Positions 16,838 to 21,151 of a stretch of 64,000 nt of DNA are shown in pieces. Under the pieces are notes generated by a model. The model did not search any database. It had not been told where the DNA came from and was given only the letters and a program-made list of their open reading frames with translations. The stretch comes from Desulfosporosinus sp. Sb-LF (GTDB taxonomy: Bacteria > Bacillota > Desulfitobacteriia > Desulfitobacteriales > Desulfitobacteriaceae). The translations under genes and the position numbers were made by a program. How positions within the stretch are numbered: the first letter of the stretch is position 1; every line of letters starts with the position of its first letter. The DNA lies in the NCBI RefSeq assembly GCF_004766055.1, contig NZ_SPQR01000005.1, positions 248,001 to 312,000 of the forward strand, written 5' to 3'.

Positions 16838-17611
16838 TCAGTCTAACCCCTTTAGTTTAGGAAGTTCTAATTGAGGAGGGAGATGACGCTTATGCTCACT
16901 CTGACGATGTAACGTTTCGATTCGTTCTTGTACCTCAGGGGCAACCTCTCCTCCCAGTAAGTAACGGTCAATCAGATCATAGGTTAGCCCCAGTTCTGTT
17001 TCATCCGTCTGCCCAGGCCAAAGTCCGGCTGTGGGTACTCGTTTAACAATTTCTGGGGGAAGTCCCAATACCCTTGCCCAGGCGCGTACCTCAGTCTTCG
17101 TGAGAGAACTAATCGGTAAGAGATCCACACCACCGTCTCCATATTTTGTAAAATACCCAATATAGCTCTCTGGAGCATTATCTGTCCCTACCACCAAGTA
17201 ATTAAGGGCATTTGCCACAGCATAGAGGGTTGACATACGCAACCGGGCCTTTAAATTTCCCTGACTCATTTTTTCCCCGACTAAAGCATATCTTTGACTT
17301 TCCAAACCCTTCTTGACGTGTTCGAAGATCTGAGTGTGGGCATCACCCAAGTCCACTTCCAACGGGCTGATCTCAAAGCCCTCTGCAATCCAATAAGCAT
17401 CTTCCTTGTCATCCGGATTAGAATGACTAGGCATAATTACTCCAAGGCAATTATCCGGAAATGCTTGACTACAAAGTCCCGTAACCACCGCAGAGTCAAC
17501 GCCCCCAGAGATCCCCACTACAACACCTTTGGCATTCGCTTCGGTAACCTTTTCACGCAACCACTGCACGGTTTGGTTGATACGGCCAGTTATTTCTTCA
17601 TCTGTCCACAT
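16838..17611 (-). CDS. nadE: NH3-dependent NAD+ synthetase NadE
   Basis: This 257-residue enzyme makes NAD from nicotinate adenine dinucleotide, ATP and ammonia. The PP-loop SGGVDSAVV is at about residues 36-44. Downstream motifs GTDNAPESYIGYFTKYGDGG and LTKTEVRAW bind the substrates. There is no N-terminal glutaminase domain, so it needs free ammonia. A longer frame from 17647 would overlap pncB. The ATG at 17611, after GGAGTGGAG, leaves a single base between the pncB stop and this start. It is the middle gene of pncB-nadE-nucleotidase. Confidence 0.95.
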   Translation of the reverse strand: MWTDEEITGRINQTVQWLREKVTEANAKGVVVGISGGVDSAVVTGLCSQAFPDNCLGVIMPSHSNPDDKEDAYWIAEGFEISPLEVDLGDAHTQIFEHVKKGLESQRYALVGEKMSQGNLKARLRMSTLYAVANALNYLVVGTDNAPESYIGYFTKYGDGGVDLLPISSLTKTEVRAWARVLGLPPEIVKRVPTAGLWPGQTDETELGLTYDLIDRYLLGGEVAPEVQERIETLHRQSEHKRHLPPQLELPKLKGLD

Positions 17612-17612
17612 A

Positions 17613-19067
17613 TTACTCCACTCCTTGATTCTTTGCTTTAATTTCATGATTGATTGCTACGAGAAGTTGGTGTTTTAAGTTAAAAAGATCTGTCGACAAA
17701 TCGACAATATAGCTGTGCGGATTCGCTAAGCGTTTAACTTCATCCCAGAAAGTATCCAATTCTTTTTTGGCATAAGTTTGAATCTCTTTAAGCTTAGGTA
17801 ATTCATAAACCCGCTTTCCATTTCTGAACACCGGAACTAAAAGTTCTCTAGTTCGAAAATCCCTTAACGTTTTCCGCTTCCACGTCTGAACAGGATCAAA
17901 AATGGTCAGAGATTCCCCTTCGAAAACTTCATCTTCCAGAGCAATGAGATCGGCCATAGCTTTTCCCCCTCGGTCGTAAAAACGCACCACCTTTTTTACA
18001 CCTGGGTTCGTGATCTTAGTGATGTTCTCCGAGACTTTTAAACGCGGAAGAAAAACACCCTGTTCTTCTTCAGCGGCCAATTTGTAAACCCCCCCTAACG
18101 AAGGGTTATTTCCAGATGTAATGAGATTCGTTCCAACGCCCCAGGAGTCAATCACTGCGCCTTGGGCGCGAATGGCGAAGATTGTGTCCTCATCTAAATC
18201 ATTAGAGGCCACAATGATTGCATCCTTAAGTCCTGCATCATCAAGCATACGTCGAGCTTCCCTAGACAAATAGGCTAAATCTCCACTATCCAGACGAATT
18301 CCTTGGAAGTGATGTCCTTCCTCTTCCAGTTCATGCCCCACCTTGATCGCATTTGGAACCCCCGATTCTAGAACATTATACGTATCCACAAGTAGTAAGC
18401 ATCCATCTGGGAAGGTGCGTGCATACGCTCGAAATGCCTCCAATTCCGAGGGAAAACACTGAATCCAGCTGTGGGCCTGAGTTCCTGAAACAGGGATACC
18501 GAATCGTTTTCCTGCCAAAACGTTCGACGTAGATTGACATCCCCCGATGAAGGCTGCTCGTGCCCCCAAAACGCCTGCATCCGGTCCCTGCGCTCTCCGC
18601 AAGCCGAATTCCATGACTGGCCCCCCGGCTGCCGCCGTTACCACACGTGACGCTTTCGTTGCGATAAGGGTCTCAAAGTTTACTATATTCAAGATAGCGG
18701 TCTCTATAAGTTGTGTTTCGAAAATGCGCCCTTTCACGCGGATCAGTGGTTCATATGGAAAAACTGCAGTCCCTTCCGGTATGGCATCGATGTCTCCCGT
18801 AAAATGAAAGTTACGCAATTCGTCGATAAAGTCTTCGTTAAAAAGGTTTAGACTGCTCAAATACGTTAAATCTTTCTCACTAAAGTTGAGAGTTTCAAGA
18901 TAATCTACGACTTGTTCGAGTCCTGCCGCCAGGGCATACCCCCCTTTAAACGGCAGTGTGCGAAAGAAAACATCAAATACGGCTTCTTTCTCACGACATC
19001 CGTTGACCCAGTAACCCTGCATCATCGTTAATTGATAAAGGTCTGTAAGCATTGTAAGATTTTCCAT
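17613..19067 (-). CDS. pncB: Nicotinate phosphoribosyltransferase PncB
   Basis: This 484-residue enzyme converts nicotinate and PRPP to nicotinate mononucleotide, the entry step of the Preiss-Handler NAD route. It shows the N-terminal LTDLYQLTMMQGYW, the conserved EFGLRRAQGPDAG and SGTQAHSW segment with the phosphorylatable His, the PRPP-binding RLDSGDL, and GVGTNLITS. Length and motifs match the clostridial/Bacillus long form. It is first in the operon with nadE. GAGG lies 11 nt before the ATG. The promoter must lie in the intergenic region that also holds the DnaA-box cluster. Confidence 0.95.
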   Translation of the reverse strand: MENLTMLTDLYQLTMMQGYWVNGCREKEAVFDVFFRTLPFKGGYALAAGLEQVVDYLETLNFSEKDLTYLSSLNLFNEDFIDELRNFHFTGDIDAIPEGTAVFPYEPLIRVKGRIFETQLIETAILNIVNFETLIATKASRVVTAAAGGPVMEFGLRRAQGPDAGVLGARAAFIGGCQSTSNVLAGKRFGIPVSGTQAHSWIQCFPSELEAFRAYARTFPDGCLLLVDTYNVLESGVPNAIKVGHELEEEGHHFQGIRLDSGDLAYLSREARRMLDDAGLKDAIIVASNDLDEDTIFAIRAQGAVIDSWGVGTNLITSGNNPSLGGVYKLAAEEEQGVFLPRLKVSENITKITNPGVKKVVRFYDRGGKAMADLIALEDEVFEGESLTIFDPVQTWKRKTLRDFRTRELLVPVFRNGKRVYELPKLKEIQTYAKKELDTFWDEVKRLANPHSYIVDLSTDLFNLKHQLLVAINHEIKAKNQGVE

Positions 19068-19244
19068 GATAATAGCCTCGCTTCATACTCTCCAACATAG
19101 CTTGTTAGAACGATTAGGTCATTCATTAATAGCATGCAAGAAATGGATTAAACCATGCGTGAGAATTTCGACCTTTCAGACGTCATTTCCTGCATAAAGT
19201 CTAAAATTAAAAACAAAAGGTTACTATTATTTACGCTTGCAAAG

Positions 19245-19286
19245 AGACAAGCCTTCAATTTAAGGCTTGTCTTTCAACTTTTTTAC
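19245..19286 (+). terminator. Orphan plus-strand terminator
   Basis: AGACAAGCCTT (19245-19255) pairs perfectly with AAGGCTTGTCT (19262-19272) around a 6-nt loop. A T-rich stretch ending in TTTTTT follows on the plus strand. No plus-strand gene precedes it; on the minus strand it could be a weak argH terminator. A short RNA starting after 19068 is possible. Confidence 0.7.
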
Positions 19287-19311
19287 ATAGTTAGGAACGA
19301 ACTACGAAGAG

Positions 19312-19426
19312 TTATCCACAAGTATCCACAAACAAATGTCGATTATCCACCGTCTATCCCAAGCTTATCCACGATAAAATCCACCGTATTCTGATATTAT
19401 CCACAGAGTTATCCACACTATGCACA
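19312..19426 (+). repeat. DnaA-box cluster, seven sites in one orientation
   Basis: Three exact TTATCCACA boxes (19312, 19397, 19409) and four one-mismatch variants (GTATCCACA 19322, TTATCCACC 19343, TTATCCACG 19365, CTATGCACA 19418) lie within 115 bp, all reading the same way. Start-to-start offsets from the first box are 10, 31, 53, 85, 97 and 106 nt, close to whole helical turns. DnaA binds this 9-mer. No dnaA, dnaN or rpmH gene is near, so this is not the standard oriC context. Confidence 0.8.
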
Positions 19427-19621
19427 GGTCTTTGATAATTTTTGTGAAAAACCAAGTTTGGAAACCCATCAATGAAGCATGGTACAAACTTTTGGTAAAC
19501 CCCATACGGGTATTTGTTATTACTTTTCTGATTCCAATCCAAGTTTACCCTCGTTAACCCCTCAGCATTCTCTTCATGTTGACATTTTCGTCAAATTATT
19601 TTAATGAAATATGGTTCGACA

Positions 19622-21004
19622 CTACCAGAGTAATTCTACCAACATCTCTCGACTTACTCGAATTCCTTCAGCAACCGTCTCCGGCGAAGGGCCCCCTGTG
19701 ATCTTTCGATTGCGAACGCAATACTCAATCCCGATTGCTTCAAATAAATCCTCTTCAAAAACGGAGGAAAGCTCCTGATAGTCGCTTAAACCTAACTCTT
19801 CTAACCCAATTCCTTGTTTACTACAGTGTAATACAATCCGTCCGACTAACTCATGCGCCTCCCGGAAAGGTACTCCTTTCTTGGCCAAGTAATCTGCCAG
19901 ATCCGTTGCATTCGTAAATCCACCTTTAGCTCCCCAAGCCAAGGTATCACGGTGTATCTGCATAGTCCGGAGCATCGGTTCTACAACCAACAAACACTTT
20001 TGAATCGTATCCACAGCATCAAAGACCTGTTCTTTGTCTTCTTGCATATCTTTGTTATAAGCGAGTGGAAGTCCCTTCATAACAGTTAAGAGGGCCATTA
20101 AATCACCATAAACTCGACCAGTTTTTCCCCTTACCAATTCTGCCACATCTGGGTTTTTCTTTTGGGGCATGATACTCGACCCTGTTGAATACCCATCATC
20201 CATGGAGATAAACTGAAATTCCCCGCTGGACCAAAGGACGAGTTCCTCGCAAAGTCTGCTAAGGTGCATCATAAGGATAGATGCACCTGCGAGAAATTCT
20301 ATTGCAAAATCGCGATCGCTTACCCCATCTAAACTATTTAAGGTGACTCCATCGAAGCCCAGTTCCATGGCTACTTTTTCTCGGTCGAGTGGAAACGTTG
20401 TTCCCGCCATTGCCCCTGAACCGAGTGGGGAGCTATTCAAACGCTTTCGTGTGTCTTTAAGCCGCCCAAGGTCACGCAAAAACATTTGAACATAGGCCAT
20501 CATATGATGGGCAAACGTAATCGGCTGTGCCTTTTGCATATGTGTATAGCCAGGCATCCAAGTCTCAAGATGCTCTTCTGCTAAACCAAGAAGCGTCTGG
20601 AGCAATTTATTCACCAAAAACTTAGTCTGGTCAATCTCTTCCCTCAAATAAAGTCGCAAGTCCAAGGCAACTTGGTCATTCCGGCTTCGCCCAGTATGAA
20701 GTTTTTTTCCTACAGACCCAATTCGCTCAGTCAAAAGTTTCTCTATATTCATATGGATATCTTCTGCACCGATCTCAAACTCCACATTTCCCGCTTGAAT
20801 ATCTTCTAAGATCCCTTTTAGTCCCTCTATTAAATGGTTGGCTTCATCCTCCGAGATAACACCCACGCTTCCTAGCATCCTCGCATGGGCTATACTTCCT
20901 TGGATATCTTGCTTGTACAAGCGTTGATCGAAGCGTATTGAGGAATGAAAATCTTCCACCAATGCATCCGTAGTCTTTTCAAAACGTCCGCCCCAGAGCT
21001 TCAC
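19622..21004 (-). CDS. argH: Argininosuccinate lyase ArgH
   Basis: This 460-residue enzyme of the fumarase/aspartase superfamily cleaves argininosuccinate to arginine and fumarate. The signature loop GSSIMPQKKNPD with the catalytic Ser is at about residues 277-288. HTGRSRNDQVA and TPYTHMQ-like GYTHMQKAQP are also present. The start is a GTG at 21004 giving the family-typical Met-Lys-Leu-Trp-Gly-Gly, placed behind GAAAGGAAG. The GTG six codons earlier has no ribosome-binding site. It is last in argF-argG-argH on the minus strand. Confidence 0.97.
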   Translation of the reverse strand: MKLWGGRFEKTTDALVEDFHSSIRFDQRLYKQDIQGSIAHARMLGSVGVISEDEANHLIEGLKGILEDIQAGNVEFEIGAEDIHMNIEKLLTERIGSVGKKLHTGRSRNDQVALDLRLYLREEIDQTKFLVNKLLQTLLGLAEEHLETWMPGYTHMQKAQPITFAHHMMAYVQMFLRDLGRLKDTRKRLNSSPLGSGAMAGTTFPLDREKVAMELGFDGVTLNSLDGVSDRDFAIEFLAGASILMMHLSRLCEELVLWSSGEFQFISMDDGYSTGSSIMPQKKNPDVAELVRGKTGRVYGDLMALLTVMKGLPLAYNKDMQEDKEQVFDAVDTIQKCLLVVEPMLRTMQIHRDTLAWGAKGGFTNATDLADYLAKKGVPFREAHELVGRIVLHCSKQGIGLEELGLSDYQELSSVFEEDLFEAIGIEYCVRNRKITGGPSPETVAEGIRVSREMLVELLW

Positions 21005-21151
21005 ATTACATCTTCCTTTCACTATGATTTACTTCTATTTTTGGGTCAAGCCAATTGTACGTTTGTACACGCTCAATTCTAACATGCTCTTTAGCACTAG
21101 TGCTTTTCAGTTAAATGCTTATAGTTGCAACAGTCTCATACTTACGAAGAA

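Follow-up and report, generated by a model that had tools for sequence, protein, structure and literature searches.

The DnaA-box cluster between argH and pncB

The window, a 64,000-nucleotide stretch of Desulfosporosinus sp. Sb-LF (4.27 Mb genome, 30 contigs), contains the leftward-transcribed genes argH, pncB and nadE, and a dense cluster of DnaA boxes occupies the spacer that separates the argH 3′ end from the pncB start (Table 1). NCBIfam profile matches bore out argH and pncB as the flanking genes, as named in a preliminary description of this DNA. The nearest named relatives in a PncB comparison were Desulfosporosinus, Acididesulfobacillus and a Desulfitobacterium.

The preliminary description had counted seven boxes at 19312–19426, all on the + strand and three of them exact, at offsets of 10, 31, 53, 85, 97 and 106 from the first box; we found every position again, and the offsets were correct. 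A further one-mismatch box on the opposite strand lies just beyond the cluster at 19443. The last three boxes of the cluster form a head-to-tail core, which we refer to as the triad.

Table 1 Features of the argH–pncB locus and of the related clusters in the same genome; positions refer to the window unless a contig is given.
Feature	Position	Strand	Details
nadE, NAD synthase	16838..17647	−	TIGR00552; next after pncB
pncB, nicotinate phosphoribosyltransferase	17613..19067	−	TIGR01513, NF006695; cluster upstream of pncB
Promoter-like element of pncB	19166..19193	−	GCAGGAAAT-N10-GGTCGAAA; pattern match in 23/29 spacers
Extra box	19312..19320	+	Exact TTATCCACA; in an insertion occupied in 1/22 aligned spacers (window genome only)
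Conserved box at −75/−74 from the triad	19322..19330	+	One mismatch; GTATCCACA in the window genome, TTATCCACA in most relatives; present in ~79% of 29 spacers
Conserved box-like position at −54/−53	19343..19351	+	One mismatch; TTATCCACC; top-base frequency 0.86
Weak box-like position at −43	19354..19362	+	CTATCCCAA; frequency 0.65; missing from the preliminary count
Conserved box at −32/−31 from the triad	19365..19373	+	One mismatch; TTATCCACG; ≤1 mismatch in ~76% of 29 spacers; frequency 0.92
Triad core, 30 bp	19397..19426	+	TTATNCACA-NNN-TTATNCACA-YTATNCACA; head-to-tail, spacings 12 then 9
Triad box 1	19397..19405	+	Exact TTATCCACA; mean top-base frequency 0.98 (22 aligned spacers)
Triad box 2	19409..19417	+	Exact TTATCCACA; mean top-base frequency 0.98 (22 aligned spacers)
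Triad box 3	19418..19426	+	One mismatch; CTATGCACA; zero gap after box 2; mean top-base frequency 0.88
argH, argininosuccinate lyase	19622..21022	−	TIGR00838, 646 bits; cluster downstream of argH 3′ end
tsaD-side cluster, same genome	L005 1459–1632 (G000:C3:334048–334221)	one strand	Six exact boxes, triad included
comF-side cluster, same genome	L001 1501–1560 (G000:C2:198318–198377)		Downstream of comF and a gene with a CxxC domain; first gap four bases

Chance occurrence had been judged very unlikely, and simulation agreed. None of 400 windows simulated under an order-2 Markov model held four or more same-strand boxes (at most one mismatch) in 115 bp; three, the maximum, was reached in 21 of them, compared with seven observed. 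Exact boxes reached at most two per 115 bp (2/400 windows), compared with three observed. By contrast, the 64-kb window as a whole contains 70 boxes where 56 were expected, and 6 of 100 shuffles reached 70. Because this total is unremarkable, the signal lies in the clustering of boxes and not in their abundance.

Helical phasing, which had been proposed to place bound DnaA on one face of the helix, is real (R = 0.84 at 10.5 bp, P ~0.02) but only modest. The null here consisted of random placements that kept an equal minimum spacing, and for the conserved offsets P was ~0.015–0.04. Phasing to 10.5 bp beats random placement; the support for it is not strong.

Two other readings of the spacer were rejected. 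The minus strand over the cluster folds no better than shuffled sequence (z = +1.24), which does not support an RNA element in the argH trailer, and Rfam gave no match at 18900–19800. A plasmid or mobile origin finds no support either, as the spacer has no plasmid match and is flanked by ordinary chromosomal genes.

Conservation of the cluster and possible control of pncB

Conservation was assessed at 28 of 59 pncB loci, with identity of at least 72%; 31 more distant loci were left out. All 28 relatives carry a same-strand cluster no more than 450 bp upstream of pncB, so that conservation in related genomes, one of the checks proposed for this locus, held throughout. Internal spacing among the relatives is rigid: counted from the first box of the triad, boxes recur at 0, 12 and 21, with more at −32/−31 and −75/−74 and a looser position at −54/−53, where relatives often show TTATCCCCC (two mismatches). 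No box position recurs on the opposite strand of the 29 spacers. Column by column, conservation was 0.86–0.98 for the boxes other than those at 19312 and 19354, compared with 0.56 in the remainder of the spacer; this alignment comprised 22 spacers, with two long ones (L017 and L026) and five from outside the main group excluded. Because the box at 19312 sits in an insertion specific to the window genome, the conserved set comprises six of the seven boxes. Although short 9-mers are common and near-matches in the window exceed expectation, simulation and this conservation together rule out a chance cluster or sequence artefact, to which we assign a negligible probability.

A strong terminator-like hairpin with a T-run occupies 19243..19274 (+ strand); none of the genes found is transcribed into it. 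The location is not kept among relatives: alignment occupancy is low at 19268–19287, and the tail region of the hairpin is absent from the other aligned relatives.

The other well-conserved block of the spacer, at 19148–19193, lies nearer pncB and includes the promoter-like element (Table 1), which we take to resemble the sigma-H promoter consensus. If real, such a promoter would couple NAD salvage (pncB–nadE) to the onset of sporulation. L046 lacks the element, as do five relatives that fall outside the main group. As those five relatives keep the triad without a promoter match, triad and promoter are separable. Where both occur, they are 129 to 294 bp apart with no constant helical phase, and the distance from the triad to pncB itself ranges from ~100 to ~450 bp across relatives while the spacing inside the core stays constant.

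Spo0A-box-like motifs also occur on either side of the cluster: near the argH end, TGTCGAA or a near match lies at 19615–19621 and 19587–19593 (− strand), and many relatives, but not the window, have TGTCGNA at −102 to −105 from the triad. The Spo0A core motif is given as TGTCGAA (PMC3485338).

These distances bear on the proposal that pncB or argH responds to DnaA, with the cluster serving as a DnaA operator for pncB–nadE (or as an element of the argH 3′ end) that would couple NAD salvage, by activation or repression, to replication or sporulation. Such an operator would account for a cluster upstream of pncB in every relative examined and for the sigma-H-like promoter that separates the two in 23 of 29 spacers; gene regulation by DnaA is also known from other B. 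subtilis clusters, for example sda (PMC4447404). It would have to act, however, over distances to gene and promoter that vary with no constant phase, in relatives that retain the cluster without a promoter match, and at a triad that elsewhere adjoins tsaD, comF–hpf, leuA and other genes. An operator of the sda type, at fixed distance, is unsupported because the distance between boxes and promoter varies. Since the cluster is rigid while its distance to pncB drifts, and since its core adjoins unrelated genes elsewhere, control of pncB becomes less likely; the proposal is weakened without being excluded, and we regard it as unlikely but still worth keeping in view.

A three-box core reused at few chromosomal sites

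We searched for the 30-bp core with at most two mismatches. Of 45 family genomes, 43 carried the triad: 38 had two copies, 4 had a single copy and 1 had three, which leaves 2 without any. A phylum sample yielded the triad in 195 of its 398 genomes. The reversed pattern was absent from the matches listed for the phylum sample, and with one extra base separating box 2 from box 3, matches fell to 8 of 396 genomes. A control in another phylum gave a match in 1 of 198 genomes, plus one match to the reversed pattern in a different genome, and another class, mostly of small genomes, gave none in 394; the base composition of these control groups was not matched. The spacing, other-phylum and class controls thus point to a specific triad geometry that is confined to part of the phylum. 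It is not general, as 203 of the 398 phylum genomes and all 394 of the other class lack a match.

The counts in this study all overstate the independent evidence because species of one genus are kin. In particular, the 28 pncB relatives and the 45 family genomes probably overlap widely, so that their counts are not independent.

Within the window genome, exact boxes number 197, compared with 105 for the reversed pattern. Four places alone have exact pairs no more than 25 bases apart: oriC, tsaD (C3:334 kb), comF (C2:198 kb) and the argH–pncB site. A genome-wide box scan with location of oriC had been suggested as a check, and similar density at many intergenic sites as a refutation; similar clustering appeared at few sites only, and the proposal was not refuted. 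The tsaD-side cluster contains the abutting pair TTATCCACATTATCCACA twice. Only one of the 45 family genomes, the window genome itself, has the exact form with four bases in the first gap, at its comF site, and that site therefore cannot be called family-wide.

The cluster does lie away from the usual oriC genes, as first described: dnaA is on a different contig (C2), with an oriC-like cluster directly upstream of it whose boxes are in both orientations. Dense DnaA boxes mark origins, and on that ground alone the argH–pncB cluster might be a second or cryptic replication origin. However, the oriC-like cluster lies elsewhere, dnaA, dnaN and other origin genes are missing at argH–pncB, and the sequence flanking the boxes is poorly conserved. 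Given this gene context and these flanks we do not favour a second origin, which we find scarcely credible.

Among the sites listed for the phylum outside the family, at least 136 from 97 of 188 matching genomes, all 136 were fetched and classed. They fell to comF–hpf (51), tsaD (51, of which 4 through a folate gene only), leuA (5, with or without an ABC-F gene) and elsewhere (29). In the family, 53 distinct sites out of 83 places were classed: 29 at argH–pncB, 23 at tsaD (four of them assigned solely through a folate cyclo-ligase neighbour) and 1 other. Orientation of the triad relative to the marker gene was constant for TsaD (66/66), PncB (28/28), ArgH (27/27), HPF (42/42) and ComF (37/37).

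Close to the triad (within 150 bp), additional same-strand boxes are ~10–20 times as dense as at 0.4–1.4 kb. The contrast holds in all four named contexts, leuA being represented by only 5 loci. Which box is the weaker one depends on context: box 1 at comF–hpf and often at tsaD (TTATNAACA), and box 3 at argH–pncB (CTATRCACA). The base counts per context still included three repeated loci.

Further shared contexts were seen beside fliS and amino-acid ABC transporter genes (L164, L240–L245 and similar) and between pepF and a folD-adjoining gene whose family is unknown (L187, L188, L254–L257). At one locus (L183, G206:C10:134180), the triad lies ~0.4 kb past the 3′ end of a dnaA frame; because dnaA adjoins, this triad may belong to an oriC.

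Arm positions could be measured only in genomes that have dnaA and the site on a single contig. The argH–pncB triad was on the right arm at 9–33% of the arm in all eight measurable genomes, the tsaD triads were at 21–70% (median 31%; 15 genomes plus G239), with 70% in one genome, and the comF triads were at 13–29% (7 genomes); three other triads were at 77–93%. Chromosome length was rounded for three genomes, G398 and G009 are split over contigs, and the tsaD sites of G295 and G056 were assigned through the folate neighbour. The named sites are origin-near in most genomes, not in all. The tsaD and pncB triads point toward oriC and the comF triads away from it, directions that result from an orientation fixed to genes read with the fork.

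Few sites at fixed places, origin-near in most measured genomes, would also suit a role in organising the chromosome, in which DnaA, bound both to oriC and to these sites, would bring them together or tether a domain near the origin. There is no direct evidence for such pairing or anchoring, and arm and fork orientation differ between sites. Differences in fork orientation from site to site are expected in any case, because orientation would simply follow the neighbouring gene. We consider a chromosome-organising role very unlikely.

Proposed extra-origin control of DnaA

Extra-origin DnaA-box clusters are a kind already known, and those of B. subtilis are reportedly the subject of a 2012 study by Okumura. 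Smulczyk-Krawczyszyn (2006) is said, by the title of that study, to have dealt with a Streptomyces DnaA-box cluster outside oriC that is involved in replication control; it is likewise extra-origin and comes from an unrelated phylum, and its geometry was not compared. With several clustered boxes beyond chance outside oriC, the argH–pncB site fits the B. subtilis DBC type as far as sequence goes, and the DBCs, especially gcp/ydiF, likewise consist of several boxes within a non-oriC spacer. The argH–pncB cluster differs from oriC itself, which lies beside dnaA/dnaN.

Presumably, B. subtilis Gcp is TsaD and YdiF is an ABC-F protein. The gcp/ydiF region and the tsaD site of the window genome and its relatives agree in position, downstream of the same gene. 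At three loci (L101, L102 and L108), tsaD and an ABC-F gene converge on the triad, the arrangement of gcp–ydiF in B. subtilis (PMC4447404). Among the B. subtilis regions considered from that paper, argH–pncB and comF–hpf do not appear. A shared gene neighbourhood is descriptive and does not define function. The gcp/ydiF region was bound by DnaA in vitro at ~0.15 µM, which places it among the strongest sites, and preferred ATP-DnaA 16-fold at low concentration (PMC4447404).

The E. coli sites offer a second comparison. Like the argH–pncB cluster, datA lies outside oriC, downstream of genes, with its essential boxes facing one way; its boxes are set around an IHF site, whereas those at argH–pncB nearly abut and have no known IHF partner (PMC5742627). 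DARS1 and DARS2 resemble the triad in having a three-box core with identical spacing at separate loci, but DARS has an inverted box I and a preference for ADP-DnaA, whereas all three triad boxes are on the same strand (PMC5742627). A plain DARS can be set aside, as its box orientation does not fit. By analogy, the triad may be described as combining the one-way boxes of datA with the fixed three-box core of DARS.

We propose an extra-origin role for the argH–pncB cluster, in which its DnaA boxes load an ATP-DnaA oligomer and hold back initiation; we consider this reading probable, with binding, oligomer and function all inferred. The preliminary description had suggested a cluster that titrates DnaA or tunes initiation; comparison supports this well, through conservation and the small number of such sites, and no binding was measured. 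As far as sequence alone can tell, the boxes, the fixed triad, their conservation, their reuse at few sites, their orientation relative to genes and, in the measurable genomes, their place in the origin-near third of one arm are secure. In the inferred mechanism, DnaA, probably in its ATP form, would bind the exact boxes of the triad, whose fixed head-to-tail spacing would aid a short DnaA oligomer that may extend leftward over the phased boxes. Several DnaA molecules held in an early-copied region would leave less free ATP-DnaA, and initiation at oriC would be delayed or damped. Doubling of the site soon after initiation would strengthen this brake.

Evidence from B. subtilis bears on how strong such a brake could be. 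Loss of six extra-origin clusters together caused early initiation (reviews PMC5295017 and PMC13220808). One review states that no cluster playing a significant part in controlling initiation is known from B. subtilis (PMC5295017), and according to the other, tenfold overproduction of DnaA gave no over-initiation (PMC13220808). A strong titration effect is therefore disfavoured.

The triad could instead be a reset site, at which assembled DnaA changes its nucleotide state by hydrolysing ATP as at E. coli datA, an activity that is inferred. One-way boxes like the essential boxes of datA would suit head-to-tail ATP-DnaA (PMC5742627), rigid spacing at several loci exceeds what a plain sink needs, and whether B. 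subtilis has regulators that balance ADP-DnaA and ATP-DnaA remains unknown according to a 2026 review (PMC13220808). Yet datA requires an IHF site (PMC5742627) and B. subtilis is described as lacking IHF (PMC13220808), cooperative binding alone could explain the spacing constraint, and biochemical data are lacking; we hold a reset site to be improbable. A broader reading makes the triad a control module of many Bacillota, present in about two copies per chromosome and altering the nucleotide state or the oligomer form of DnaA, as a counterpart of the datA and DARS said to be missing there. Its proposed sites would be tsaD plus comF–hpf in many lineages and tsaD plus argH–pncB in the window's family. 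We offer this module, sites included, as speculation that is rather unlikely to hold in full.

A literature search, incomplete because most subscription journals lay outside its coverage, returned no paper on the triad or on a DnaA site at argH–pncB or comF–hpf. As a proposed extra-origin site that would restrain initiation, the triad bears on how Bacillota restrain DnaA without the datA, DARS and Hda systems of E. coli. A 30-bp core that is precise to the base pair and sits at few fixed sites in many genomes provides a defined piece of DNA and a small set of sites that can be deleted, and the triad pattern can be used to find such sites in uncultured species. The apparent swap of the second site in one family, with argH–pncB in place of comF–hpf, is traceable on a tree.
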